From a virus: a stretch of 64,000 nt of DNA. Shown here one piece after another: positions 818-57,053 of the stretch. The notes under the pieces were generated by a model that was not told where the DNA came from, did no database searches, and saw only the letters and a program-made list of their open reading frames with translations. How positions within the stretch are numbered: the first letter of the stretch is position 1; every line of letters starts with the position of its first letter. Made by a program: the position numbers and the translations under genes. The stretch lies in IMG/VR virus record IMGVR_UViG_3300037010_001386, positions 1 through 64,000 of that record. The stretch is one strand, 5' to 3'.

Positions 818-1153
818 TTAATTTGTAAATAACCCAACTTGTGGTTTCATACTCTCTCTCGACCTTTCCACTGCCACCCAATAAGCATTCTTTGGCGAAT
901 AGTCATTTCTGAGAGCTTCTTCATACCATTCATTCCATAACGGCGGAATATGTGCATACCAATATATTGCAGGATTTTTGCTATCGTGCCAACCAACAAT
1001 CTTGAATGCGTTCTTATGTGTCAGATCATATACACGAGCTCCAATCCTTGCCAATCCTAAATGATTATTTCCATAAACATATTCCATTATTTCAATTGTG
1101 GAATGTGGCAAATTATCGCTTAAAAGTTCTTGAATTTTTTGTGTTTGAGACAT
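818..1153 (-). CDS. Winged-helix-like small phage protein
   Basis: 111 residues. The first 70 look like a winged helix: a helical start (QKIQELLSDNLPHSTIEIMEYVYG), then a recognition-helix-like RIGARVYDLTHKNAFKIVG and a wing ending in WHDSKNPAIYWY. The tail is aromatic and basic. Probable DNA-binding early regulator; the target is unknown. Member of the leftward cluster 1-1890 driven by the promoter at 1938-1982. Confidence 0.5.
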   Translation of the reverse strand: MSQTQKIQELLSDNLPHSTIEIMEYVYGNNHLGLARIGARVYDLTHKNAFKIVGWHDSKNPAIYWYAHIPPLWNEWYEEALRNDYSPKNAYWVAVERSRESMKPQVGLFTN

Positions 1154-1889: not shown

Positions 1890-1937
1890 TTTCTTATATT
1901 TAAATTAATTTGTTGCCGACCTTTAATTTATAATTTA

Positions 1938-2018: not shown

Positions 2019-2240
2019 TTATTTAACTTCCAATTCGTTTGGTTCGTCTGAAGGAGGTTTCCACCAATCCTTCCATAAAATTTGACAACACTCTTCAAAT
2101 GAACCTGCGTTGCTGAAAAGCAAATGATATGCTCTGTGTTGATTTTCTGGCTTCTCTAAAAGAAACCATGTCTTTCCCCGACTCTTTGGAGGGACATGAT
2201 GAATGGTTATTCTGTCTTCCCTTCTAACTTTCTTTTTCAT
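2019..2240 (-). CDS. Small HNH-like protein with its own transcription unit
   Basis: 73 residues: basic start (MKKKVRREDR), then ITIHHVPPKSRGKTW, reminiscent of the beta-strand HHxxPRSRGG core of HNH proteins, followed by ENQHRAYHLLFSNAGSFEECCQILWKDWW. I recall similar tiny HxxPxSRGG...WHxLFxN proteins from Patescibacteria; this was not checked. Unlike nearly all other genes here it has a textbook ribosome-binding site (AGGAGGTG about 7 nt before the ATG). It is a monocistron with its own promoter (2428-2455), a long structured leader (2264-2407) and a terminator, so it looks like a separately regulated or recently acquired unit. Confidence 0.6.
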   Translation of the reverse strand: MKKKVRREDRITIHHVPPKSRGKTWFLLEKPENQHRAYHLLFSNAGSFEECCQILWKDWWKPPSDEPNELEVK

Positions 2241-9364: not shown

Positions 9365-9420
9365 ATTATTTTTTATTTTATTTATTTTTTCGACCTTTGT
9401 TTAGTTATAACCATTTTTTA

Positions 9421-10062
9421 TCAAACATGATTTCTTATTTTCAATGGTCTAATTTTATAGTCTCCAAGCACATACTGATTTTTCCAATAATTAGAACCAG
9501 TTTTATTTGTAATATTAGTAATCTTTCCTGTGTCATCTCCACCAATAAACCAACCTTTAGTAAATGACGCATTTTCACAAATCCAAGCATTACTACAAAC
9601 CTGAGCATCACCAGAAACCCGAGCATCACCATATACCCAAGCATCATTATAAATCCGAGCTTTGCCAGCAATATAAGCATTGCCAGAAATCCAAGCATTA
9701 TCATAAACCCAAGCGTTACCACAAACCCTAGCGTTACCAACAACTCGAGCATTGCCAGAAACCATAGCATATTCATATACCCAAGCATCATCATAAATCC
9801 AAGCATTACCATAAATATGAGCATTGCCAGAAATTCGAGCGTGACCAGCAATACGAGCATTATCATAGACATAAGCATTACCATAAACACAAGCATTGCT
9901 AGAAATCCAAGCATTATCTTCCTGACTAAGATTTTCTTCTTTCTCTATATATCCACCCAAATCTCCTTTAGTTACATTTCCAAAACTTCTTTCTGCTTTT
10001 ATTTGAAATAATGTTGTTCCAAATAATTCTTTTTTATTTTTTGTTATTGAATATTTTTTCAT
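9421..10062 (-). CDS. Hexapeptide-repeat beta-helix protein, copy 1
   Basis: 213 residues. Conserved N-cap (MKKYSITKNKKELFG, FGNVTKGDLGGYIEKEENL), then about 17 imperfect six-residue repeats of the type xxNA(W/R)(V/I) (for example SGNARVVGNARVCGNAWV), the hallmark of a left-handed beta-helix, and a conserved C-cap (SFTKGWFIGGDDTGKITNI). The second gene at 10518-11087 keeps both caps but has a different repeat order and number. I infer a surface or binding protein evolving by 18-bp repeat shuffling. A long out-of-frame ORF over the repeats is a shadow. Confidence 0.75.
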   Translation of the reverse strand: MKKYSITKNKKELFGTTLFQIKAERSFGNVTKGDLGGYIEKEENLSQEDNAWISSNACVYGNAYVYDNARIAGHARISGNAHIYGNAWIYDDAWVYEYAMVSGNARVVGNARVCGNAWVYDNAWISGNAYIAGKARIYNDAWVYGDARVSGDAQVCSNAWICENASFTKGWFIGGDDTGKITNITNKTGSNYWKNQYVLGDYKIRPLKIRNHV

Positions 10063-10103
10063 TTTCTTATATTTTTGACCTTTTAAATAATGGATATGTT
10101 TTT

Positions 10104-10461: not shown

Positions 10462-10517
10462 ATTTTTTTATTTTAATTAGATTCTAACGATCTTTGTTTA
10501 GTTATAACCATTTTTTA

Positions 10518-11087
10518 TCAAATATGATTTTTTATTTTTAATGGTCTAATTTTATAGTCTCCAATCACATATTGATTTTTCCAATAGTTAGAACCAGTTT
10601 CGCTTGTAATATTAGTAATCTTTCTTGTGTCATCTCCACCAATAAACCAACCTTTAGTAAATGACGCATTTTCACAAATACGAGTATCACCAAAAACACG
10701 AGTATTGCCAGAAATTCGAGCATTACCATAAATCCAAGCATTATCAGAAATACAAGCATTGCCAGAAACCATAGCATATTTACAAATACAAGCATTATCA
10801 GAAACCCAAGCATTGCCAGAAACACAAGCATTATCAGAAACCCAAGCATTGCCAGAAATATAAGCATTGCCAGAAACACAAGCATTGCCAAAAACCCAAG
10901 CATTGCCAGAAACACAAGCATTATCAGAAACCCAAGCGTCCCCATCTTGGCTGAGATTTTCTACTTTCTTTATCCAACCACCCAAGTCTCCTTTCTTTAC
11001 ATTTCCAAAACTCTTTTCTGCTTTTATTTGAAATAATGTTATTCCAAATAATTCTTTTTTATTTTTTGTTAGTGAATATTTTTTCAT
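10518..11087 (-). CDS. Hexapeptide-repeat beta-helix protein, copy 2
   Basis: 189 residues, paralogue of 9421-10062. N-cap (FGNVKKGDLGGWIKKVENL) and C-cap (SFTKGWFIGGDDTRKITNI, then YKIRPLKI) are nearly identical. The middle carries about 13 six-residue turns (SGNAWVSDNACVSGNAWVSD type). DNA beyond the genes is also duplicated, including TTTAGTTATAACC 3' of each gene. The two copies are therefore a segmental duplication whose repeat cores have since diverged. Confidence 0.75.
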   Translation of the reverse strand: MKKYSLTKNKKELFGITLFQIKAEKSFGNVKKGDLGGWIKKVENLSQDGDAWVSDNACVSGNAWVFGNACVSGNAYISGNAWVSDNACVSGNAWVSDNACICKYAMVSGNACISDNAWIYGNARISGNTRVFGDTRICENASFTKGWFIGGDDTRKITNITSETGSNYWKNQYVIGDYKIRPLKIKNHI

Positions 11088-11510: not shown

Positions 11511-11559
11511 CTATGAGGGGAAAGCTCGGCAGCATACCCCCCATAGAAAGCCGACCTTT
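11511..11559 (-). promoter_or_regulatory. Predicted H-type pseudoknot leader containing the AAAGGTCG motif
   Basis: On the minus strand AAAGGTCGGC (11550-11559) is followed by a 10-bp hairpin (CTATGGGGGG 11537-11546 with CCCCTCATAG 11511-11520, one G-U). Its 16-nt loop contains GCCGAGCTTT (11521-11530), which pairs with the AAAGGTCGGC at 9 of 10 positions. The ATG of the small membrane protein follows 18 nt later. The geometry fits a regulatory pseudoknot; no known riboswitch class was recognised. Confidence 0.6.
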
Positions 11560-11747: not shown

Positions 11748-11778
11748 TTTTTTGTTTATTAAATTAGTTTACCGACCT

Positions 11779-11865
11779 TTATTCTAATTGTGTTATTATT
11801 AAATTATTTTTTGTTAAATCGTGTTCAATCATATTCATACTCATATAAGTGCATTTATATTTCAT
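11779..11865 (-). CDS. Possible 28-residue peptide
   Basis: Short ORF (MKYKCTYMSMNMIEHDL...), whose stop overlaps the leader motif of the next gene. It is supported only by an ATG in AT-rich leader context. Confidence 0.25.
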   Translation of the reverse strand: MKYKCTYMSMNMIEHDLTKNNLIITQLE

Positions 11866-12369: not shown

Positions 12370-12427
12370 TTTTTTATTTTCTTTATATTAATTATTTTCT
12401 TGTGCCGACCTTTTAATTTATACTTTA

Positions 12428-13702: not shown

Positions 13703-13756
13703 CTTGTTAATTTATAACGACCTTTCTATACATCTTTTTTAATTTAATAATATGAT

Positions 13757-20832: not shown

Positions 20833-20860
20833 TAAAAAAAGTGCATTTTTTGTGTATAAT
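20833..20860 (+). promoter_or_regulatory. Late-type leaderless promoter of the lysis genes
   Basis: GTGCATTTTTTGTGTATAAT element (from 20841) with the extended -10 TGTGTATAAT; TATAAT at 20855-20860 is followed by 6 nt and the ATG at 20867. The same element precedes portal and other structural genes. Confidence 0.85.
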
Positions 20861-20866
20861 ATAGAT

Positions 20867-21691
20867 ATGGAAACAAATAATATGATTAACTTAGGAGCAA
20901 AAGAAAGACCACGAGACGACAGAGATTATAAACTCGGTCAGATTCAAGCGCCAATTCAAATACCCGAAACTTACTTGCCTGATTATTCTTGGATTATTCC
21001 TTTGAGAAATTATCAAGGGCATTTACCAACCTGTTCTGCAAACGCAGATACTCATTTAAGAATGGTTATGGATTATGACCCGCTTCTGCCACCGCCGAAA
21101 TATAATCCGAGATTTAATTGGATTGAATTCAAGATTTTAGATTCTTATCCTTTGGAAGATGGAACAGATATGAGAACGATTTTCAAAGCAAATCAGAATA
21201 ATGGATTCTGTGATTATAATTTGCTTGATAATGATATTACTTTACCTCTGACTACATACTCTGACCCGAGCGTATTAAATCAAACAATAGTTCAAAATGC
21301 TTTGCCAAGAAGAATACAATCTTATGCTTTTGGAGAGACGGATTATAATTCTTTGGCTCAACATATTTATCAAAATAAAGCCGTATTGCTTTTAATTAAA
21401 TGCGATGATGGATTTTGGGGAACAGAAACTCCTACTTTTACAACAGGTAAATATGGACATTTTGTGTGTGCAATAGGATATGACCCAGTAAAAGGTATAA
21501 TGATAATTGATTCAGCTGACCCGAATTATGCAATCAAGTTTATCGCTCCGCAGTATTTATCGTTTGTGATAGAAAGCGGAACAATGGTTGAACTCCCGCC
21601 GACGAAAGAAACTCTTATGACAAAATTGATAGCATATTTACAGCTATTGGTAGGTTTGCTTAAAAAGAAATTAGGTGGTAAAATAAATTAA
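20867..21691 (+). CDS. Papain-like cysteine peptidase, probable lysis enzyme
   Basis: 274 residues from the ATG at 20867; the GTG at 20852 lies on the promoter -10 and is rejected. C1A-like catalytic elements: YQGHLPTCSANA (Gln oxyanion and Cys), KYGHFVCAIGYD (His) and DSADPNYA (Asp/Asn region). The C-terminus is an amphipathic or hydrophobic helix (MTKLIAYLQLLVGLLKKKLGGK) that could bind membrane. Next to a holin-like gene, it is probably an endolysin-like cell-wall or cell-surface peptidase. Confidence 0.75.
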   Translation: METNNMINLGAKERPRDDRDYKLGQIQAPIQIPETYLPDYSWIIPLRNYQGHLPTCSANADTHLRMVMDYDPLLPPPKYNPRFNWIEFKILDSYPLEDGTDMRTIFKANQNNGFCDYNLLDNDITLPLTTYSDPSVLNQTIVQNALPRRIQSYAFGETDYNSLAQHIYQNKAVLLLIKCDDGFWGTETPTFTTGKYGHFVCAIGYDPVKGIMIIDSADPNYAIKFIAPQYLSFVIESGTMVELPPTKETLMTKLIAYLQLLVGLLKKKLGGKIN

Positions 21692-21714
21692 AAGGTCGTT
21701 TAATAAATAAAACA

Positions 21715-22594: not shown

Positions 22595-22599
22595 ATTTA

Positions 22600-35107: not shown

Positions 35108-37537
35108 ATGAAGATTAATCCTAATTATTGGATATTACAAGGTAATCAGTTAAAACCATCTAATCCTAATTGGTCTGTTTGGGGTGAGGGTTCTGTTTTG
35201 TGGGGCTCTATAACTGGCACACTTTCTAATCAGACTGACCTACAATCAGCTCTCAATGGGCTTGTTCCTTACTCAGGAGCAAATAAGAACTTATCAATGG
35301 GAAATTATAATGTTTCTGCTCTGGGATTAACTTCTACTAATCTTACCGTTGATACAAGCACTCTTTATGTAGATAGCGTCAATCATAGATTGGGGATTGG
35401 GACGACAAGTCCCGGTACGACGCTGCATGTCGTTGGAACTTTTCGCCTCGCAAGTAATGGTTCTAATTTTGTAAATATAACCAATTCTAATGTAGGAAGT
35501 GGTTCTATCTCAATACCAAATCTTGCTGGTGTTGATGTATTTGATGTATTAGGCACAGCTCAAACATTTACTGCCACAAAAACATTTTCAAATAGTACAT
35601 ATTCCGCACTTTTTACTGGTGGCAATGTCGGGATTGGAACAACAGCACCAAGAGCAAATTTTGAAGTAGATGGATCAGTTTGGTTGAAAACACATTTAGC
35701 AGATGATGCGGAAACTCTTATTATTGAACCAAACACAAGTGCAAATGCTGTTCAATTAAGAACCTATGTGGCAGCTGGAAACATAATCATAGGTAACAAC
35801 TCTAATAATGTTTTATTAGCTACGGGTTCTGGCAATGTGGGCATCGGAATGACATCGCCAACTTCTCAGCTTACTCAAAAATCTACTACTGCTTTACAAA
35901 GCGCTCCATTAGGTAGTCAATTATTATCAACATCTAACTGGACGACAACAGGTTGGACTGGTGATTTCGTTAACGGATTTACTCATACAACAGGAAATAC
36001 GACAGCACTGACCAACACATTAGCGGCAACTTCTGGCAATTTATATCAAATCTCATTTACGGTTACAAATAGAACTGCTGGTTCATTTACAATTAGTTTC
36101 GGAAGCGTAACATCAGGTAGTTATACAGCAACAAATGCGTGGGGAGTAAAAGCAACAGGAACAGGAACGCTATCTATTACACCAACTAGTGATTTCAATG
36201 GGACAATAGTAATAGGTATTCAACAAATTACAGGAATATATTCGCCTATTTATGCTATTCAAGATAACACTGGTGCTAATAATATTGAAATTAGAAGCAG
36301 TTTAAATTCGCTTAATAATCTATTTATTGGTAAAAACACTGGAGGTCATAATACGACTGGTTCCAGTAATACATTTATAGGAGCTAACTCAGGGGCATAC
36401 AACACCACAGGAAACAACAACACAGCTAATGGATATGCTTCTTTCAACTCCAATACCACAGGAGGATATAACACAGCAAATGGATATGGATCTCTCAACA
36501 ACAACACAACAGGTAACTACAATACAGCTAATGGATTTTATTCCCTCTACTATAACACAACAGGAAACTACAATACAGCAAATGGTGTAAGCACACTCCA
36601 AGCCAACACTACGGGGGTATATAATACAGCCGATGGTATGAACGCACTTTCCTCAAACACTACGGGAAGCAGTAATACAGCTAATGGGGCAAGTGCATTA
36701 TCATCCAACAACACAGGGTCTAATAATGTAGCCAATGGAGTAAGCGCTCTCTATTCCAACACCACAGGCACTAGCAATACAGCTAATGGATATTATTCTC
36801 TAAATTCCAATACTACAGGTAACTATAATACCGCATTAGGTTATTATTCTGGTCGTTTTATTGCTGATGGAGCAACAGGCAACGCTACATCAACTAATTC
36901 TATATATTTAGGAGCAAATACAAAAGCATTAGCCAGTGGAGATACAAATGAAATAGTAATAGGTTATAACGCAACAGGGTTAGGTTCAAATACGGCTGTT
37001 TTAGGGAATAGTTCAATTGTTACCACTGCTTTATATGGAAATGTCGGCGTTGGAACGACAACGCCACATGACAAATTAGATGTAAACGGAGTAATAAGTT
37101 CAGGATACACTGCTGGTAATGGTGAAATTAGAATGTATCAGAATAATAATCAAGATGGTATTTATGTTGCGTTAAAAACCGATACTACGAATAAAAAAAG
37201 TGGATTATTTAGAAGTAATACCAATTTTTTCAATTATTATGACACAAATACTGGTGATACTGTATTAGATGCTACTTTTGCTAGTAGTTCTGACATCTTT
37301 AAGATACAAGGTGTTGAAAAAATGAGAATAGCAAATAACGGCAATGTCGGTATTGGAACTACTACACCAAATTACCAATGTCATATCAATGGCACATTAG
37401 GATTTACACCTGGAAGCTCCGTGACACCAGCTAATAATGGTGATATAGTTATAGAAGCAACGAGCAACACATCAGTTACTATAAAATTAAAAGGTTCTGA
37501 TGGTGTTGTAAGAAGTGTTGCACTTACACTATCATAA
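35108..37537 (+). CDS. Fibre/adhesin-like protein with YadA-head-like repeats
   Basis: 809 residues. Several VGIGTT(A/S/T)P trimeric-fibre turns, a jelly-roll-like middle (NWTTTGWTGDFVNGFTHTTG...), then about nine 17-residue repeats of the type NTTGNYNTANGYGSLNN (415-575), the pattern of trimeric adhesin heads, and a further VGIGTTTP stretch at the C-terminus. Likely a trimeric tail or head fibre binding the host surface. It lacks an S74 chaperone at its end. Unusually placed between portal and capsid genes. Confidence 0.75.
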   Translation: MKINPNYWILQGNQLKPSNPNWSVWGEGSVLWGSITGTLSNQTDLQSALNGLVPYSGANKNLSMGNYNVSALGLTSTNLTVDTSTLYVDSVNHRLGIGTTSPGTTLHVVGTFRLASNGSNFVNITNSNVGSGSISIPNLAGVDVFDVLGTAQTFTATKTFSNSTYSALFTGGNVGIGTTAPRANFEVDGSVWLKTHLADDAETLIIEPNTSANAVQLRTYVAAGNIIIGNNSNNVLLATGSGNVGIGMTSPTSQLTQKSTTALQSAPLGSQLLSTSNWTTTGWTGDFVNGFTHTTGNTTALTNTLAATSGNLYQISFTVTNRTAGSFTISFGSVTSGSYTATNAWGVKATGTGTLSITPTSDFNGTIVIGIQQITGIYSPIYAIQDNTGANNIEIRSSLNSLNNLFIGKNTGGHNTTGSSNTFIGANSGAYNTTGNNNTANGYASFNSNTTGGYNTANGYGSLNNNTTGNYNTANGFYSLYYNTTGNYNTANGVSTLQANTTGVYNTADGMNALSSNTTGSSNTANGASALSSNNTGSNNVANGVSALYSNTTGTSNTANGYYSLNSNTTGNYNTALGYYSGRFIADGATGNATSTNSIYLGANTKALASGDTNEIVIGYNATGLGSNTAVLGNSSIVTTALYGNVGVGTTTPHDKLDVNGVISSGYTAGNGEIRMYQNNNQDGIYVALKTDTTNKKSGLFRSNTNFFNYYDTNTGDTVLDATFASSSDIFKIQGVEKMRIANNGNVGIGTTTPNYQCHINGTLGFTPGSSVTPANNGDIVIEATSNTSVTIKLKGSDGVVRSVALTLS
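36354..36835 (+). repeat. 51-bp tandem repeats inside the fibre gene
   Basis: About nine in-frame units of 51 bp centred on AACACNACAGG...AATACAGC(T/A)AATGG encode the adhesin-head repeats. Synonymous variation between units suggests an old array still able to recombine. Confidence 0.8.
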
Positions 37538-37563
37538 TAAAGGTCGTAAAAAATAATAAAAAT

Positions 37564-37811: not shown

Positions 37812-37851
37812 TAAATTATAAAGGTCTAAAAAATTAATCAATAATAAAAAT

Positions 37852-38117: not shown

Positions 38118-38357
38118 ATGAAAAAGTTAATGTCGGGCGAAACAAGTATAACAATTCAGGTATTACTGACAATTATCAGTGGAATTGCGATTGGAATATT
38201 TACTGCGATTAGTTATGTGAATTCACAAATATCCCCAGTTGCAGCAGAAACACAAGCAAACTCACAAGCAATCGCAGGAATGCAAAGCGATATATCTTGG
38301 GTTAAACAAGCACTTCAAGCTCAAGGATTTTCTCCTAAAGGTCAACAAATCAATTAA
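38118..38357 (+). CDS. Small membrane-anchored protein with coiled coil
   Basis: 79 residues: one TM near the N-terminus (VLLTIISGIAIGIFTAISYV), then a helical tail (AETQANSQAIAGMQSDISWVKQAL). Resembles spanin- or holin-like accessory proteins in topology, and the protein at 57054-57311 has the same plan. Confidence 0.55.
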   Translation: MKKLMSGETSITIQVLLTIISGIAIGIFTAISYVNSQISPVAAETQANSQAIAGMQSDISWVKQALQAQGFSPKGQQIN

Positions 38358-38361
38358 ATAA

Positions 38362-38880
38362 ATGTTTGAAATAATTTGGAAATCGTTACAGGTAAATAAA
38401 GACACGTTAGATGAAGTTATTGAAGAGATTAATCGTGAGATTAGTCGTATTAGTGCAAATCGTATTCCATATTTAACTGGTCGTGCATTAAAAAAGGAAC
38501 TCGTTCGTGTTCAAGAATTAAGAAATCAACGAGATATTATTAAAAAGAAATTTGGAACAGCTACTCCGAAAAATTCTGCAGATAATGAAATTGATGAAAC
38601 TGATAAAGATATGGGTGTAGAAAATGCTGGAAATATACCAGTATCTTTGTTAGCTCGTCAAGACCTTTCAGAAACTGAAAAATCTGAAGATTATGTAACT
38701 GGTGATTATATACATTTATATAATAAACGAGCAAAAATTAAATGGAGGGATGGACATGGAAACTATCAAGTAGAGTTTTTAGATGGAAAGGATAAGGGAA
38801 AAACAATGATAGTGCCAGAAAACGAGATAGACAAAATGATTTCAAAAAATATAGATTTAATAATAAAAAAATATGAATAA
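38362..38880 (+). CDS. Hypothetical protein sharing an LLARQDL motif with the capsid protein
   Basis: 172 residues. Helical N-terminal half (LDEVIEEINREISRISANRI), linker, then IPVSLLARQDLSETEK, which matches IPSGLLARQDLEST near the N-terminus of the major capsid protein. The C-terminal part is an SH3-like barrel (AKIKWRDGHGNYQVEFLDGKDKGKTMIVPE). It may mimic or contact the capsid protein during assembly. Overlaps the giant gene by 8 nt. Confidence 0.6.
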   Translation: MFEIIWKSLQVNKDTLDEVIEEINREISRISANRIPYLTGRALKKELVRVQELRNQRDIIKKKFGTATPKNSADNEIDETDKDMGVENAGNIPVSLLARQDLSETEKSEDYVTGDYIHLYNKRAKIKWRDGHGNYQVEFLDGKDKGKTMIVPENEIDKMISKNIDLIIKKYE

Positions 38881-41800
38881 ATTATTCAAAATGTTGTTAA
38901 GAAAAACAAGTGACGGCACAGAAGAAGAGGATGCGTTAAAAAGTGCTGATTTAACTTGTTGGGTTCAAAATGCTAATGATTTATATGAACAAGGTAAATC
39001 ATATAATTATATTATATCAGATTTACAAACGAAAGGAGTATCGCCAAGTGATATTGCAATAGTAATGGATTTATTCCAGCAAATGGTTGGTGACGAAGGA
39101 ATTGTAAAATCTAATGTAGAAAAGATTATAAGACACGAAGGAAATGAATGGGTTTTATATTCTCACGAAGGAAAGGTATTAGGAAGACATCCTACAAAGG
39201 AAAGTGCAGAAGGACAAGAGGCGGCAGTTCAAGCAAATAAATCACAGGTTAAAAAAGGATTAAGTTATGACGAATGGGAAGAAAAAGTTATTGAAGAATT
39301 AGCAAAACTTTTAGATGCACCTATTTCAGATATACAAGGTATTATTATGTTGCAATCTTTCATTTTAGACAGAGAATGGGCAAAAGATACTGACCCTAAA
39401 AAAGTTGCTCAACTTATTGAAAGAGCTTCAATTGTTCATAGGTCACAAAAAGAATTAAGCCGTGACGAATGGGAAGAAAAAGTTATTGAAGAAGTAGCAA
39501 AATTTTTTGGTATATCTATTTCAGATGCACAAGGTATTGTTATGATACAACCTTTCATTTTACAGAAAGAATGGGTAAAAGATACTGATCCTGAAAAAGT
39601 CGCTCAACTTATTGAAAGAGCTGCGACAATTCATAGGTCACAAGATGAAACATCTACAGAAAAAGATATAGTTGATTATCTTGATAAAAGTTTTTCAGAT
39701 GATAGTGTAATAACAGTCGCTGTTGTAAAAGAGAAAATTCGTAAAGCATTTCCAGAGATTAAATCAGATTGGTCAGTTGGAGTATTGGCTAGTTTATGGA
39801 TTGATAGACAGAGATTGAATAAAGCGTTTCCATCGTTATCATCTAATATTACAAAAAATCTTACTGATGTAAGAGTTGCAGAAAAACTTTTGACAGAGGA
39901 AGAATCTATTAAAACCTATTTGCATTTAGATGGCGATGATTTGTCAGGGAATCCGCAATATATTAAGGAAGTAAGTAAACTTAGTCGTTTTGGCGTAGGT
40001 CCAGATGTTATGAGAATATTAGAGGATGCAGGTCATCATTCATTGGTTAAAGTGCTTATGAGTTTAGGTTCTCCAAGCCCTGCTATTCAGAAATCATCAT
40101 TTAACGTTACAAAGAATGCTAATGATGATGAAAGAGTTGCAGAAAGATTAATGGCAGATGAAACAAGAATTAATAATGATTTACATATACAAGGCGGAGA
40201 CCGTTCAAATGATCCACAATATATTGATAGAATAAAGAGAATTAATCGTTCGGGAATTAATCCAAATGTTATGGCAATATTGGAGGACGAGAATTATCAT
40301 TCATTGGTTTCAGTGCTTATGAGTTTAGGAGCACCAAGACCTGCAAATAAAGTTCGCAGAGGAGGAATAGATGATGATGAACTATGGGGAAAATCTCAAG
40401 ATGTTACCAATAAATCAATTGAAAAAAGTAGAATTCCAGAACGAACCATTATGATTGCTTCGCTAGATGAAATGGATTATATACAAATGGGAGTTAAACA
40501 AGAAACTCCAACTAGTTGGATTGATTCCAATGGGAATGTCTGGCCAAAAAGCGAATACAAGTTTGTTGAAGAATTGAAACCTGTAAAAAAGGATGATACT
40601 ACCAATAAATCAATTCCCAATCGAACAGAACAAGCAAAAGTATTAATAAATGTTGACCACGATCTTCGGGTTAAACTTGGATTTTTTGATGGAAAAAGCA
40701 TGAATGATCCTAGGAACTGGAATGAATACAAACAAGAATTAAGTGAAAGATTTGTTGGAAATGTTTCTCAAGAAACTTTATCAGATTTAAAGGATAGTGG
40801 TTATAATTCGTTAGTATTGGCATTGAAAGAATTAGGTAGAATAAGTAAATCTCAAGATGTTACCAATAAAGGAATTTATAATAAAACAGAACAAGCACAA
40901 GTATTAATAAATCTTGACTACTATCTTCGGATTAAATTTGGATTTTTCGAGGGAAAAAGCATTAAGGATCCCAAAATCTGGAATGAATACAAACGAAAAT
41001 TAGGTGAAATGTTTGTTGGAAATGTTTCTCAAGAAACTTTATCAGACTTAAAAGATAATGGTCGTGATTGGTTAATATTGGCGTTGAAAGAATTGGGTAG
41101 AATAAGTAAATCTCAAGATAATGTTACCAATAATACAGAAAAGGATTTAAAGACATCGCTTGGCGTTCAAAGACATAACAATAGAATGGATAATATTTGG
41201 AATGATGCAAAAGAACTTGAGCGTAAGCGTGTTGCGGCAGGTGAAGAACCAAATCCAAGTCTTACCAGCCCAGAAGAAGCTGCAAAGTACGGATGGGTGC
41301 CAGTTAAAATAGATGGATATAATAGGTATCAGAGAAAAGCACAGAAATCACAGGATAATGTTACTAATAAATCATTTGAAAAAGGATCTAGATATACCAT
41401 TGTTAGAAGAACTTTTGAAGCAGAAAAATATCCAAAAGGTAGTGCAGAGAGAGCAAAATTAAATGAAAATCCTTTAACTAGTGAATATGCACATTCATAT
41501 AAATATGCAGTAGTTGATGGAAGTGGAGAATCTATGGAGGAGTTTTATAGTAAAACAGATGCTCAGAATTGGATTGATGCTCATACAAAAAATACTACTA
41601 ATAAATCATTTGAAAATCCAACAGCAGAAGGAGAACGATTAATGATTATTGATAATGAAATTTGGGATAAATTTGGATTTAGAAGCGGAAGCGATGTAGA
41701 TAAGAACTGGAATAAATATAAACAGGCAGTAAATGAAAAAGTTCATGGAAAAGTTTCTAAAGAAACTTGGGAAGATTTGGAAGATAATAATTATCACTCA

Positions 41801-44224
41801 ATGATAAAAGCATTGAATGAATTGGGCAAGTTAGAAAAATCACAAATTCAAAAAGGAAGTCTTTCGTATGGCGTTGAAGGAGAAATACAATTAGAGGCTG
41901 AAAATAATTTTGGACCATATTCAACAAGACGAGAGGTTGAAAATAATGTTAAATCTGCAATAAGGGATATGTTTAATTGGGTCAAAGATAAAGATGACTT
42001 AAAAAAACTTAAAGAAGTTTCAAATAATCCATCTAAAATAAAAGATATTGTTGATTCAATTTGCGAAGATTCGGATATTACAAAAACAGAGAAATCTCAA
42101 GTAGAAAAAGCAGATGATTCAAATTCTCTTAGAGCAGTAAATGCACGAAAACTTTATACAGCACAACAGATTCATTCAAAATATGCAGGGAAGTTTGTAG
42201 ATTTCTATCCTTATTATCATGATTATTGGAATGATAAAACTAATCGGTATGAAACTGTTTATGAGGTAAGAGGAGTAAGTAGCAAGGAGAGAGAGAATTA
42301 TCGACCAGCAGAAGACATTGGTAAGTCTATAGAAAAAGCTCGAACAATTGGTGCTCATTGGAAAGGAGAGATAAAAAGGATTATGGCACAGGGCAAGAAG
42401 CAGGGTATTGAAAATATTAATCAGATGAAAGATTTTGTTTATGACAAACTTCCACAGGAAGCATTTGACACATGGGAAAGTGCATACTCGGAAATCGGTA
42501 ATTTAGTTCATGAATATTGGGATAGTATTCCAGATTCTCGACCAAGTTATATGAAAGCACAGGGCGATCATTTTTATTTTGGCGAGCGGGTTGATTTCAT
42601 ATTTGGTGATAATAACAGAGCGACAGGAAAAATTATTAGTCTTTGGAGGTCACGAGATAGACAAGCACTTGCAATTAAAAGCGATGAAACTGGTAAGATA
42701 TATGAGTATTGGTCTGATGATCCTAAAGTGATTAAGCTCAAGAAATCTCAATTAAAAAAAGGAACTTTTGATTCTGATATAAAAGAAGAAGAGGAAGGTT
42801 CAGAACATTATGAAGACCTTGCAAATAAATATCCAGAATTTAGTTCAGAGTTTAATGAAATGGCTCAACAGGAATTGGGACATAAAAAGAACCTTGAAGA
42901 AATGAAGAATAAATTAGATGCGACAGAAACTACAAAGTCAAGACAAGATATTAACGATTATATAGATGATTATTATCGTGGCGGAGATCATCATTCTGAA
43001 GCAGAAAAAATAACAAATATTCTTTTTGATAATCCGAGTCTAGAAAAGGATTTAGAAAAAATAGGGAATGAATTTGATGTCAGCCATTATGTTGAGAGTT
43101 ATTTAGATAGAACCTATAAAAAGAAATCTTCTTCTGAAATTAGAAAAACAACATGGGACGTGACTGTTGAATATGCGGATGCAAAAGATGGATATAAAAG
43201 AAAGAAACAGACATTTAGATTAAATATAGCAGGAGATCCTGTATATGAATGGAGAGACGCATTGAGCATGAAAGTTGGACCATTAGAATTTGCACGTTTT
43301 ACAGATACACATGTCGTTAAATATGATATGCCTTTTTTTGGAACGAGAAAATCAATTTCGAATGATGAGCAAGATGATACTACAGAAAAAGCAACAATGT
43401 ATACTGGATACAAATGTAAATTATGTGGAGAAGAGTTTTTTCCATATACAGACCAACAGTTATCATCGCATCTTAAGAATAAACATCCACAACAATATAA
43501 AGAACTTCAAGATGCTGAAGATAATTACGAAGATTTAATGTTATGGGATTTCTTTACAAAGTTTAAGAGACTTCTGAAATCACAACCATTAAAAGTAACA
43601 GATGCAGAGATCCGAGATTTTTTAGGACAGAATAGTGATATTCATGATGTTGAAAAACTAATTAATATGGTTATGCAGAAATTTAATTTTCATCGTAGTG
43701 GAGCCATTGATCAGGTTTGGGACTTTATAGAAGATGTTATTCCTCCAGAGAGACGACATCTTTATAAATCTCAATTAGTATCAAAAGCAATAGATGGTTT
43801 TATTAACAAGTATGAAAAAAGTGCTGTTACAGACGAAATAGCTCGACAATTACGAACTCTTGGATGGAAAGGACCAATTGTATCTACTGGTAGTAATTCA
43901 GTTAAAGTTAATAATGGATTAAAAGGTGTTACTATAACTTATAACGAAGGAAGTGATTTATATGATTTAGTTCCTTATGACGCAACTAACGGATTGAAAT
44001 ATGGTAGTCGTATTAGCGATATATATGCAGATGATTTGGTATCAACTATTGACAGATTAATATCACAGACGAGTAAATCACAAGTATCAAAAACAATAGA
44101 TAATATTTTTGATAAATACGAAACAATACAAAAGCCAGGAGCATCGCATTCTATAACCAATAAGGGAATATTAGAATCAAGGATTGATAGAAATGGTAAT
44201 ATAAAGCATAAATGGGAAGATTAA
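38873..44224 (+). CDS. 1783-residue modular KSQ-linked protein (candidate internal virion polyprotein)
   Basis: Built from short domains joined by linkers with KSQ or RSQ, often KSQDVTNKS (at about 123, 190, 256, 507, 659, 746, 825, 989, 1074, 1291, 1569, 1632, 1735). Seen: an HEGNEWVLYSHEGKVLGRHP unit (88-107); a 60-residue tandem pair (133-192, 199-257); five copies of a 70-residue helical module (about 333-400, 421-487, 586-656, 672-745, 918-988), also present once in the neighbouring protease gene; a ferritin-like EEEEGSEHYEDLANKYPEF...ELGHKKN segment (1304-1345); and a C2H2 finger (C1515, C1518, H1533, H1538). Placed between portal and protease, it may be packaged and cleaved. Function unknown. 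Confidence 0.7.
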   Translation: MNKLFKMLLRKTSDGTEEEDALKSADLTCWVQNANDLYEQGKSYNYIISDLQTKGVSPSDIAIVMDLFQQMVGDEGIVKSNVEKIIRHEGNEWVLYSHEGKVLGRHPTKESAEGQEAAVQANKSQVKKGLSYDEWEEKVIEELAKLLDAPISDIQGIIMLQSFILDREWAKDTDPKKVAQLIERASIVHRSQKELSRDEWEEKVIEEVAKFFGISISDAQGIVMIQPFILQKEWVKDTDPEKVAQLIERAATIHRSQDETSTEKDIVDYLDKSFSDDSVITVAVVKEKIRKAFPEIKSDWSVGVLASLWIDRQRLNKAFPSLSSNITKNLTDVRVAEKLLTEEESIKTYLHLDGDDLSGNPQYIKEVSKLSRFGVGPDVMRILEDAGHHSLVKVLMSLGSPSPAIQKSSFNVTKNANDDERVAERLMADETRINNDLHIQGGDRSNDPQYIDRIKRINRSGINPNVMAILEDENYHSLVSVLMSLGAPRPANKVRRGGIDDDELWGKSQDVTNKSIEKSRIPERTIMIASLDEMDYIQMGVKQETPTSWIDSNGNVWPKSEYKFVEELKPVKKDDTTNKSIPNRTEQAKVLINVDHDLRVKLGFFDGKSMNDPRNWNEYKQELSERFVGNVSQETLSDLKDSGYNSLVLALKELGRISKSQDVTNKGIYNKTEQAQVLINLDYYLRIKFGFFEGKSIKDPKIWNEYKRKLGEMFVGNVSQETLSDLKDNGRDWLILALKELGRISKSQDNVTNNTEKDLKTSLGVQRHNNRMDNIWNDAKELERKRVAAGEEPNPSLTSPEEAAKYGWVPVKIDGYNRYQRKAQKSQDNVTNKSFEKGSRYTIVRRTFEAEKYPKGSAERAKLNENPLTSEYAHSYKYAVVDGSGESMEEFYSKTDAQNWIDAHTKNTTNKSFENPTAEGERLMIIDNEIWDKFGFRSGSDVDKNWNKYKQAVNEKVHGKVSKETWEDLEDNNYHSMIKALNELGKLEKSQIQKGSLSYGVEGEIQLEAENNFGPYSTRREVENNVKSAIRDMFNWVKDKDDLKKLKEVSNNPSKIKDIVDSICEDSDITKTEKSQVEKADDSNSLRAVNARKLYTAQQIHSKYAGKFVDFYPYYHDYWNDKTNRYETVYEVRGVSSKERENYRPAEDIGKSIEKARTIGAHWKGEIKRIMAQGKKQGIENINQMKDFVYDKLPQEAFDTWESAYSEIGNLVHEYWDSIPDSRPSYMKAQGDHFYFGERVDFIFGDNNRATGKIISLWRSRDRQALAIKSDETGKIYEYWSDDPKVIKLKKSQLKKGTFDSDIKEEEEGSEHYEDLANKYPEFSSEFNEMAQQELGHKKNLEEMKNKLDATETTKSRQDINDYIDDYYRGGDHHSEAEKITNILFDNPSLEKDLEKIGNEFDVSHYVESYLDRTYKKKSSSEIRKTTWDVTVEYADAKDGYKRKKQTFRLNIAGDPVYEWRDALSMKVGPLEFARFTDTHVVKYDMPFFGTRKSISNDEQDDTTEKATMYTGYKCKLCGEEFFPYTDQQLSSHLKNKHPQQYKELQDAEDNYEDLMLWDFFTKFKRLLKSQPLKVTDAEIRDFLGQNSDIHDVEKLINMVMQKFNFHRSGAIDQVWDFIEDVIPPERRHLYKSQLVSKAIDGFINKYEKSAVTDEIARQLRTLGWKGPIVSTGSNSVKVNNGLKGVTITYNEGSDLYDLVPYDATNGLKYGSRISDIYADDLVSTIDRLISQTSKSQVSKTIDNIFDKYETIQKPGASHSITNKGILESRIDRNGNIKHKWED

Positions 44225-44258: not shown

Positions 44259-46340
44259 ATGAACAAGATAATCGCAACGTTTAATGGAAATACACCATTT
44301 AAGTTTTTTATAGAAAAAGCTGAATCATTTAATCCAGAAGATTATAATGGCGAATGGGTTATTTATGGATGTGCTTCTTCTACAAACACAGACCACGATC
44401 AAGAAAAAATGGCTCCTCAAGCATTGGAGCAAATGGCAGAGATAATCAACAAGCAACCAATACCGCTTAGATATGAACATCAAAAAGATGAAAATTCTAT
44501 TATAGGAAAAGTATTTGAAGCAAGTGTTGATGCTCGTAATAAATTGATGATTAAAGCACAACTTGATAAAACAAATCCTATTGCAAAAGTATTATGGGAC
44601 GGAATTATATCAGGTTCAAAAATGGGATTTTCAGTAGGAGGAAGAGTAGTTCAAGCGGCGAGAGAATTAGTGGAGGGAATAGGTAAAAAGATTAGAACAT
44701 TTTATAAAGTAGATGTCGATGAAGTTTCAGTAACTCCTCGACCATCTAATTTTGATGCGTGGATGGTAAATCATTCTTTCGCTAAATCAATATCGGAGGC
44801 AAGCACATATAGAGATAATTTTAGTTTCTATGGTGCATTTTTAAGAGACAATCCCGGATTAGATTATTTGGCAGTGATTGAAAAATCAATACCAGATAAA
44901 GATTGGATAAAGGTCGATAGTAACATACAAAATAAAAAAATGAAAATAATTAAAACAAGCAGAACTTCAACGGAAACAGAAGAAACAACACCATTTGTTG
45001 AAACAACAGAAACAGATTCATATGGTAAAACATCTCCAGATCTAATGGCAGAAGCAAGAAAATTAATGAAAATTAATGATGAAATTTATAATAAACTTGG
45101 AATTAAAAGTGAAAAAGATTTAGATGATAACTGGGATAAATATCAACAAGCAGTAAGTAGTAAAGTTAATGGAAAAATTTCTAAAGAAGTAATGAAATAT
45201 CTATTAGATAATCGTTATTATGCAATAGTAAGTGCATTATTTCATTTGAATAAGATAGAAAAATCTCAGTCTCAGGAAGATGAAACATCAGAAACGACAG
45301 AAGAAAAAGAAAATTCTACCATTGATGAATTAATAACTTCTGATAAAAGTATTCCAGAAACATCTGATACTGAAACGACAACAAAAGAAACATCAGATAC
45401 TGAAACAACAACAAAGGAAGAAGATGAAGAAACTGTAACCTCAAAATCGTATGTTGATGAAGTAGTTGGAAATCTTAAAAAGGAACTTGATTCCAAGTTC
45501 AGCGATGTACTTGGCGTTTTAAAAGCCATTAAGAAATCTATTGATACTACCGACACAACAGACGAAACAACTGAAAAAGATGAATCAGAAACAACATCTG
45601 AAACAGAAAAAGATATAGATGATGAATCTGAAACAACTGAAAAAGATGAAACTGAAACAACAAATGAAACAACAAAAGGTTTTACAACTTCTACAACAGA
45701 AAAAGATGTAGACGATGAAACAACTTCTACAACAGAAAAAGATGTAGACGATGAAACAACATCTACAACATCTGAAGCTAAAAAAGCATTTAGCAGAAAA
45801 TCATCTTCAACAGAATCTACAACAACAAAAGCAGAAGAAACAATTTCTGAAACTTTTGAAACAACCGATTCTGACACAACAGATTCTGATGAAACAACAA
45901 CATCTGATACAACTGATTCAACTACAAATGATTATGGTGCTGAATATGTAATTCCAGATGTAAATGAAGCAATGAAATCTGCAAGAGCGATGGGAATAAA
46001 TCCATTAGATGCTTTTGTATATGCTTTAACAAAGCATATCAAACAATTCGAGAATAAAATAATGGAAAAGAATAATACAAGAATTGTTGGATTAGCAAAT
46101 GAAGTTGCTACTATAATTAGAAACGATAAGACCATTCAAAAATCTATCAAAGGATGGATGAATGAACCAATCGCTCCTAAATCAGTAGCGTTTGGAGTTC
46201 CTTACATTAAAGAAAGAAACGGAGATTTATTTAGATTAACACCTATTAATAAATCAGAAGACGAAGAGTTAAGGAAATCATTTGTTGGTAAGAGTTTCAA
46301 AGAACTTTATCAAGCAAAATATTCAACTACATTGGAATAA
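44259..46340 (+). CDS. Prohead protease fused to scaffold-like region
   Basis: 693 residues. Residues 30-180 match the HK97/S78 prohead protease: NGEWVIYGCASSTNTDHDQE, PLRYEHQKDE (His74) and SKMGFSVGGR (Ser125). Then comes one copy of the helical module shared with the giant protein (about 264-330, ending KSQSQ), a long Thr/Glu/Asp-rich linker with repeats ETTSTTEKDVDD, and a C-terminal helical region (PDVNEAMKSARAMGINPLDAF) as in scaffolds. It should cleave scaffold and capsid precursors. An internal start at 44940 could give the scaffold alone. Confidence 0.88.
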   Translation: MNKIIATFNGNTPFKFFIEKAESFNPEDYNGEWVIYGCASSTNTDHDQEKMAPQALEQMAEIINKQPIPLRYEHQKDENSIIGKVFEASVDARNKLMIKAQLDKTNPIAKVLWDGIISGSKMGFSVGGRVVQAARELVEGIGKKIRTFYKVDVDEVSVTPRPSNFDAWMVNHSFAKSISEASTYRDNFSFYGAFLRDNPGLDYLAVIEKSIPDKDWIKVDSNIQNKKMKIIKTSRTSTETEETTPFVETTETDSYGKTSPDLMAEARKLMKINDEIYNKLGIKSEKDLDDNWDKYQQAVSSKVNGKISKEVMKYLLDNRYYAIVSALFHLNKIEKSQSQEDETSETTEEKENSTIDELITSDKSIPETSDTETTTKETSDTETTTKEEDEETVTSKSYVDEVVGNLKKELDSKFSDVLGVLKAIKKSIDTTDTTDETTEKDESETTSETEKDIDDESETTEKDETETTNETTKGFTTSTTEKDVDDETTSTTEKDVDDETTSTTSEAKKAFSRKSSSTESTTTKAEETISETFETTDSDTTDSDETTTSDTTDSTTNDYGAEYVIPDVNEAMKSARAMGINPLDAFVYALTKHIKQFENKIMEKNNTRIVGLANEVATIIRNDKTIQKSIKGWMNEPIAPKSVAFGVPYIKERNGDLFRLTPINKSEDEELRKSFVGKSFKELYQAKYSTTLE
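44940..46340 (+). CDS. Predicted separate scaffold protein from an internal start
   Basis: In frame with the protease gene (Met228), preceded by AAAGGTCG (44909-44916), 23 nt, and AAAAAAATG: exactly the leader arrangement seen before stand-alone genes here. The product (466 residues) would hold the shared module, the acidic repeat linker and the C-terminal helical region without the protease, like lambda Nu3 within C. Confidence 0.5.
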   Translation: MKIIKTSRTSTETEETTPFVETTETDSYGKTSPDLMAEARKLMKINDEIYNKLGIKSEKDLDDNWDKYQQAVSSKVNGKISKEVMKYLLDNRYYAIVSALFHLNKIEKSQSQEDETSETTEEKENSTIDELITSDKSIPETSDTETTTKETSDTETTTKEEDEETVTSKSYVDEVVGNLKKELDSKFSDVLGVLKAIKKSIDTTDTTDETTEKDESETTSETEKDIDDESETTEKDETETTNETTKGFTTSTTEKDVDDETTSTTEKDVDDETTSTTSEAKKAFSRKSSSTESTTTKAEETISETFETTDSDTTDSDETTTSDTTDSTTNDYGAEYVIPDVNEAMKSARAMGINPLDAFVYALTKHIKQFENKIMEKNNTRIVGLANEVATIIRNDKTIQKSIKGWMNEPIAPKSVAFGVPYIKERNGDLFRLTPINKSEDEELRKSFVGKSFKELYQAKYSTTLE

Positions 46341-50298: not shown

Positions 50299-50766
50299 AT
50301 GAACGAAATACGCAAAGAATCTTTAATAGTAGCATTAAATAAATTTTATCAAGAATTGAAAGATTTGGGTGCAAGTGATTCAGAAACGAAAGATATGATG
50401 GCAGAATTTAAAAAATGGTTTGAACAATCATTAGATTATGACTTGGCTTCTAATCGTGTAATTGATAAATACTTTGGAAAGTCAATGAGTCAAAAAAATC
50501 ATTTTAAAGAATCGTGGAGAACTGAAAAAGGTTTCTTGGGAATTTTTGGAACACCAGAAACTGATAAAATTAGAAGATATATAGATACACAATTATTAAA
50601 TGGCGAAAATCCAGCAGATGTATATAATGCATTGGCAGTGCTTGGAGCAGAACAGATGGGAATTGATGAGAGCACAAAAATGTTAATTAAAATCAAAGAG
50701 ATGGTCGAGGAAGAATATAAAAAGATTGAAGACAAAGGTCTATTAGCTTGGAAAAGAAATGGATAA
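50299..50766 (+). CDS. Hypothetical protein upstream of MuF-like gene
   Basis: 155 residues, helical and charged; contains SLDYDLASNRVIDKYFGK and GTPETDKIRRYIDTQLLNG. It overlaps the MuF-like gene by 8 nt and may be the N-terminal part of a split minor head protein, or a separate connector protein. Confidence 0.55.
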   Translation: MNEIRKESLIVALNKFYQELKDLGASDSETKDMMAEFKKWFEQSLDYDLASNRVIDKYFGKSMSQKNHFKESWRTEKGFLGIFGTPETDKIRRYIDTQLLNGENPADVYNALAVLGAEQMGIDESTKMLIKIKEMVEEEYKKIEDKGLLAWKRNG

Positions 50767-52134: not shown

Positions 52135-52170
52135 TAAATAAAGGTCTAAATAAAATAAATTAATAATAAT

Positions 52171-56451: not shown

Positions 56452-56643
56452 ATGAATAATATAACAAGTAAAACAATAGTTACAATGACAATTATAAAAG
56501 CGAATGGCAAGATAAAGAATCTTGGTATTGCTTCTGGTGGAACGATAACACAAAAGATTCTTTTCTGGATAAAAGTAAAGATAAATAATATATGTGCATT
56601 AACGGAAAGATTGTTCAAAAAAGGTCGATTAATTAATAAATAA
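56452..56643 (+). CDS. Small basic protein
   Basis: 63 residues (MNNITSKTIVTMTIIKANGKIKNLGIASGG...), basic C-terminus. The leader motif of the next gene, AAAGGTCG (56620-56627), lies within its last codons. Unrecognised. Confidence 0.5.
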   Translation: MNNITSKTIVTMTIIKANGKIKNLGIASGGTITQKILFWIKVKINNICALTERLFKKGRLINK

Positions 56644-57015: not shown

Positions 57016-57053
57016 AAGATAAAGAATTAAAGGTTGTTAAAATAAAATAAAAA

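Follow-up and report, generated by a model that had tools for sequence, protein, structure and literature searches.

Does a phage whose genes mostly lack a Shine-Dalgarno (SD) sequence mark its translation starts in some other way? This question is raised by IMG/VR virus record IMGVR_UViG_3300037010_001386, of which we analysed positions 1 to 64,000 (the 64,000-nt window). The original prediction was that a motif, AAAGGTC(G), recurs upstream of start codons at a distance too long for an SD sequence, and that it may serve as a translation enhancer, a standby site or an RNA-processing signal. We first asked whether the motif is real, then at which level it acts, then where else it occurs, and finally what might read it.

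An octamer enriched upstream of start codons

AAAGGTC occurs 21 times in the window, compared to 7.33 ± 2.59 times in shuffled sequences, and the full octamer AAAGGTCG occurs 12 times, compared to 0.85 times. None of 100 shuffles reached either count. On the sense strand, 14 of the 21 AAAGGTC copies lie 10-40 nt upstream of a start, whereas randomly shifted starts give 0.42 on average and at most 4 in 5000 trials. AAAGGTC is also the most start-enriched heptamer (26-fold). SD-like sequence is not enriched upstream of starts (3% vs 11% in a control window), and most other genes have A-rich leaders (AATAAAAATATG). One ORF, 2019-2240(-), which matches no family, has a strong SD (AGGAGGTG) before its ATG, which is odd in a genome without SD. 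These data eliminate chance as an explanation, and the predicted observation is confirmed, with nearly all of its coordinates exact.

On the minus strand, AAAGGTCG is found at 1917-1924 (27 nt before ATG 1889 and 13 nt after a TATAAT box), 9391-9398 (26 nt before ATG 9364), 11773-11780 (25 nt before ATG 11747), 12406-12413 (36 nt before ATG 12369, after a TTGCAA/TATAAT promoter) and 13718-13725 (15 nt before ATG 13702 of an exonuclease gene). AAAGGTC(A), in full AAAGGTCA, is found at 1725-1731 (16 nt before ATG 1707) and 10077-10083 (13 nt before ATG 10062 of a beta-solenoid protein gene). The latter gene, 9421-10062(-), and a related beta-solenoid gene, 10518-11087(-), share near-identical DNA stretches (AAAGGTTGGTTTATTGGTGG...), which suggests duplication or recombination. 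On the plus strand, AAAGGTCG is found at 21691-21698, where it overlaps the stop of gene 20852-21691 (16 nt before ATG 21715), at 37539-37546, directly after the stop of gene 35108-37537 (17 nt before ATG 37564), and at 56620-56627 (22 nt before ATG 56650). AAAGGTC(T) is found at 37820-37826 (24 nt before ATG 37852, after a TATAAT box) and 52140-52146 (23 nt before ATG 52171, 5 nt after a TATAAT box). The predicted variants read TAAGGTCG at 22598, AAAGATCG at 10488(-) and AAAGGTTG at 57029-57036(+), the last 17 nt before ATG 57054.

Two convincing copies had been missed, both inside the end of an upstream gene: 38337-38343(+) (AAAGGTCA) lies in gene 38118-38357, 17 nt before ATG 38362, and 50734-50740(+) (AAAGGTCT) lies in gene 50299-50766, 17 nt before ATG 50759. 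A further AAAGGTCG at 860-867(-), 47 nt before ATG 812, is a doubtful member. The copy at 2901(-) inside the 2690-2962 coding sequence and three antisense copies (3855, 38662(-) and 49920(-)) look like chance. Spacings in the window are 13-36 nt.

Two more copies fit the pattern and are informative as to the level of action. AAAGGTCG at 44909-44916(+) lies inside ORF 44259-46340, followed by an A-rich leader and, 23 nt downstream, by an in-frame ATG at 44940. The N-terminal part of this ORF is a prohead protease (Peptidase_S78 in residues 35-167, E 7e-8), fused to a long, acidic, repeat-rich, scaffold-like part, and a major head protein follows. The internal ATG would start a predicted nested scaffold protein of 466 residues (44940-46340), beginning with MKIIKTSRTS. 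At 11552-11559(-), a 13-bp hairpin (z -4.0) separates AAAGGTCG from ATG 11492 and leaves the motif unpaired. Since other copies directly follow stop codons or lie inside upstream genes with no promoter next to them, the signal appears to act on RNA, in translation initiation and with elastic spacing, rather than as part of a promoter.

Some copies nevertheless lie 5-20 nt after a TATAAT box. A promoter-like family, CACTTGCAAT...TATAAT, occurs at 1969(-), 10134(-), 12458(-) and 22705(+), and three of these four sites lie before motif leaders. Another repeated promoter-like sequence, TGCATTTTTTGTGTATAATTAAGAT, stands before plus-strand genes, some nearly leaderless, at 20842, 32265, 37793, 48895, 52116 and 38087. 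Since the promoters are TTGCAA/TATAAT-like, we inferred that a Bacteroidota host could be set aside. One ORF of about 1811 codons (60016 to about 65451) crosses the window end into the adjoining locus L009, and is therefore missing from the plain ORF list.

Other phages and Paceibacteria

Close relatives of the phage were not found by searching IMG/VR with the terminase or a promoter pattern, INPHARED with the terminase protein (only remote hits) or the DNA of ORF 38873-44224, or genome contigs with the portal. UvsX relatives are remote and lack the enrichment. We therefore scanned IMG/VR for the leader pattern itself, which returned 105 loci, of which about 29 are rich in the motif. In these, 69 copies lie upstream of 436 called genes (window -46 to -9), compared to 1.6 expected, at 14-43 nt from the ATG, and nearly all single-base variants are rare. 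Since each locus had been selected by one hit, we also counted the copies beyond it: 71, with 17 loci holding three or more. The same scan with the permuted motif AAAGCTGG gave 4 and none. Some window proteins match these loci at 48-71% identity over parts.

A similar scan of bacterial genomes returned 92 stretches. Of the 80 examined, about a third are in Patescibacteria, most in Paceibacteria-type lineages (Nealson-, Staskawicz-, Wolfe-, Azam-, Gribaldo- and Taylorbacteria), and the rest look like chance. A phylum-wide search for the strict leader found only a few rich genomes, which directed us to the class. Octamer counts in whole host genomes against the reversed motif were uninformative because that control is itself biased. 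The genes behind the motif encode GroES, type IV pilins, and secreted and surface proteins. In some groES leaders (loci L221 and L334), the motif fills the spacer of what looks like a CIRCE operator (TTAGCACTC-AAAGGTCGT-...TGCTAA). One Paceibacteria genome, G332 (390 kb read), contains 11 leader copies compared to 0.33 expected. A terminase about 50% identical to that of the window lies in a contig of another Paceibacteria assembly, G456, which also encodes a relative of the phage UvsX/RecA; that contig lacks the motif. The host of this phage is therefore inferred.

Comparison with host 16S rRNA gave a result that the original prediction had not foreseen. In 20 Paceibacteria genomes read, the anti-SD sequence CCUCC after helix 45 is replaced by A+T-rich sequence, with the helix-45 region otherwise conserved (e.g., 16S loci L287, L292 and L338), for example GGAATAATTAAAC (genome G055), GGATTAATTAATT (G057) and GGATCACTACATTTC (G332). 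Motif-rich hosts whose 16S 3′ end could be read have lost the anti-SD. The genomes G036, G173, G281 and the Roizmanbacteria genome G040 keep CACCTCC. Across the class, 93 genomes with the canonical tail have 0.39 strict motif leaders per genome and none has three or more, while 122 genomes with 16S but no canonical tail have 1.42 and 26 have three or more (p = 8.5e-9). These counts were tabulated by hand, the test has no correction for phylogeny or G+C, and a genome counts as lacking the tail whenever the pattern failed. We found no report of anti-SD loss in these bacteria in the open-access papers searched, although prior description, for instance in work on CPR ribosomes (PMC9297842), cannot be excluded. 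Most CPR also lack Era, which binds GAUCACCUCC (PMC10582724).

How the motif may be read

The most likely explanation, in which we are fairly confident, is that AAAGGUCG is a cis-acting translation-initiation element in the mRNA leaders of Paceibacteria that have lost the anti-SD, and of phages that use the same leader grammar, including this one. The sequences themselves establish that the motif is near-invariant, that it lies about 13-43 nt before the AUG in an A-rich, G-poor leader, that it occurs with or without a neighbouring promoter, after stop codons, inside upstream genes and before an internal in-frame start, that it is shared with host groES, pilin and secreted-protein genes, and that it is commoner where the anti-SD is gone. 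By contrast, an increase in translation of the downstream gene, the mechanism, the separate scaffold product and the identity of the host are inferred, in the absence of expression data. In this view, the motif would raise ribosome recruitment for a subset of genes by holding the mRNA at the exit side of the 30S subunit while the A-rich leader feeds the AUG into the P site. The broad spacing and the minimum of about 13 nt fit a tether upstream of the SD position. Only about 16 of 86 window genes carry the motif, so it is not needed for every start. The original interpretation is thus partly supported: the enhancer or standby reading holds, and the proposed comparisons with shuffled sequence, host leaders and other phages came out positive, but RNA processing is less likely, though not excluded, and the motif is not phage-specific but a signal of a host clade.

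As to the reader, a protein, either a host RNA-binding activator or a Paceibacteria-specific ribosomal protein, is a tentative possibility that we rank slightly above rRNA; the effect on translation would be the same. All eight bases are near-invariant, AAA as strictly as GGUCG, which is more than pairing to rRNA needs, and the spacing is broad. On the other hand, such a protein is hypothetical, and the match to an exposed rRNA loop would be a coincidence.

This loop is the apical loop of 16S helix 26 on the platform (U-R-U-C-G-A-C-C), which exposes CGACC, complementary to GGUCG, and is near-invariant in the class. In eukaryotes, helix 26 of 18S rRNA lies at the mRNA exit and pairs with Gtx and HCV RNA (PMC6316650), and helix 26 makes base-paired contacts between ribosomes in L. 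lactis 100S particles (PMC5620043). A contact at this position would fit a tether 13-43 nt upstream, with AAA perhaps packing along the helix-26 stem. We consider this contact possible but doubtful. The complement is only 5 nt long, and such complements are easily found by chance; the invariant AAA is not explained by CGACC; A at position 9, which could extend the pairing, is depleted in phage leaders; and the loop is the same in relatives that keep the anti-SD. No covariation could be shown: the loop hardly varies, and genome G640, with the loop UCGGCC, keeps AAAGGTCG, which wobble pairing would allow but which is no test of the contact. No 8-nt complement is conserved in 16S rRNA: a full complement was seen only near the helix-44 tip of G055, and none was found in the region of genome G678 that holds 16S and 23S landmarks. 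The tRNA variable loop AGGUC also resembles the motif, which we treat as coincidence. If the helix-26 contact were real, which is unlikely on present evidence though not excluded, a bacterial clade that lost the anti-SD would have replaced it with another rRNA-mRNA contact, and its phages would use the same signal.

A role in RNA processing or stability is unlikely. A conserved GTCGAYT stands 20-50 nt after helix 45 in most anti-SD-less genomes (L287, L288, L292, L338, L339 and others), often behind a small hairpin and mainly where the anti-SD is lost, and it may be a processing site or an extended 16S end. Since it shares GTCG with the motif, a nuclease or 5′-end factor could recognize GUCG in leaders and also mature the 16S 3′ end. 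However, a cut at 44909 would split the protease coding sequence, the AAAGG half is absent from the rRNA site, and a processing site need not sit 13-43 nt before an AUG. An SD variant matched to a changed 16S tail is very unlikely: although the motif starts with AAAGG and the tails are changed, these are A+T-rich without a complement (CAATTAAAC, TTAATTAATT and so on), GTCGAYT pairs only through wobbles and varies without co-change while the motif does not, and the spacing is too long and too broad. A transcriptional element (initially transcribed sequence, operator or pause site) is least likely, since copies without a promoter follow stop codons or lie inside coding sequence, and the distance to the -10 box, where there is one, varies.

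Relation to known initiation signals

How bacteria without a usable anti-SD choose their starts is an open question, and Patescibacteria are a large, mostly uncultured part of bacterial diversity. The octamer, of which we found no description in the open-access literature searched, provides a concrete signal with a position, a set of genes, a host group and a possible rRNA partner. It would improve the prediction of gene starts in Patescibacteria and their phages, offers a sequence mark for assigning phage contigs to these hosts, and reveals nested genes such as the predicted scaffold.

Like the SD sequence, the motif is a short conserved leader sequence that marks translation starts, but it sits 13-43 nt instead of about 5-10 nt from the AUG with loose spacing, and the tails of the 20 Paceibacteria genomes read lack both CCUCC and any complement of it. 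Start-associated sequences (SAS) of Cluster K mycobacteriophages (PMC3203893) are likewise repeated in one orientation before many phage genes and proposed to act in translation initiation. However, SAS is 13 bp long, contains AGGAG, lies 3-7 bp from the start and is absent from the host, whereas this motif contains no AGGAG, lies 13 nt or more upstream and is shared with host genes. Non-SD initiation in Bacteroidota and other taxa without CCUCC (PMC10783764) also involves A-rich leaders, but the text of that survey does not name Patescibacteria, and we encountered no similar octamer in it. The epsilon sequence of T7 gene 10 and similar enhancers are non-SD leader sequences thought to pair with 16S rRNA away from the 3′ tail, but with another sequence and another 16S site. 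The helix-26-pairing elements of eukaryotes (the 9-nt Gtx/FGF2 element and HCV IRES IIId; PMC6316650) recruit ribosomes through complementarity to the small subunit at the mRNA exit and have experimental support, while the bacterial case rests on sequence only. Finally, in lambda C/Nu3 an in-frame internal start within the prohead-protease gene gives the scaffold; the arrangement at 44259-46340 matches this pattern, with the difference that the predicted internal start is marked by AAAGGTCG and not by an SD.
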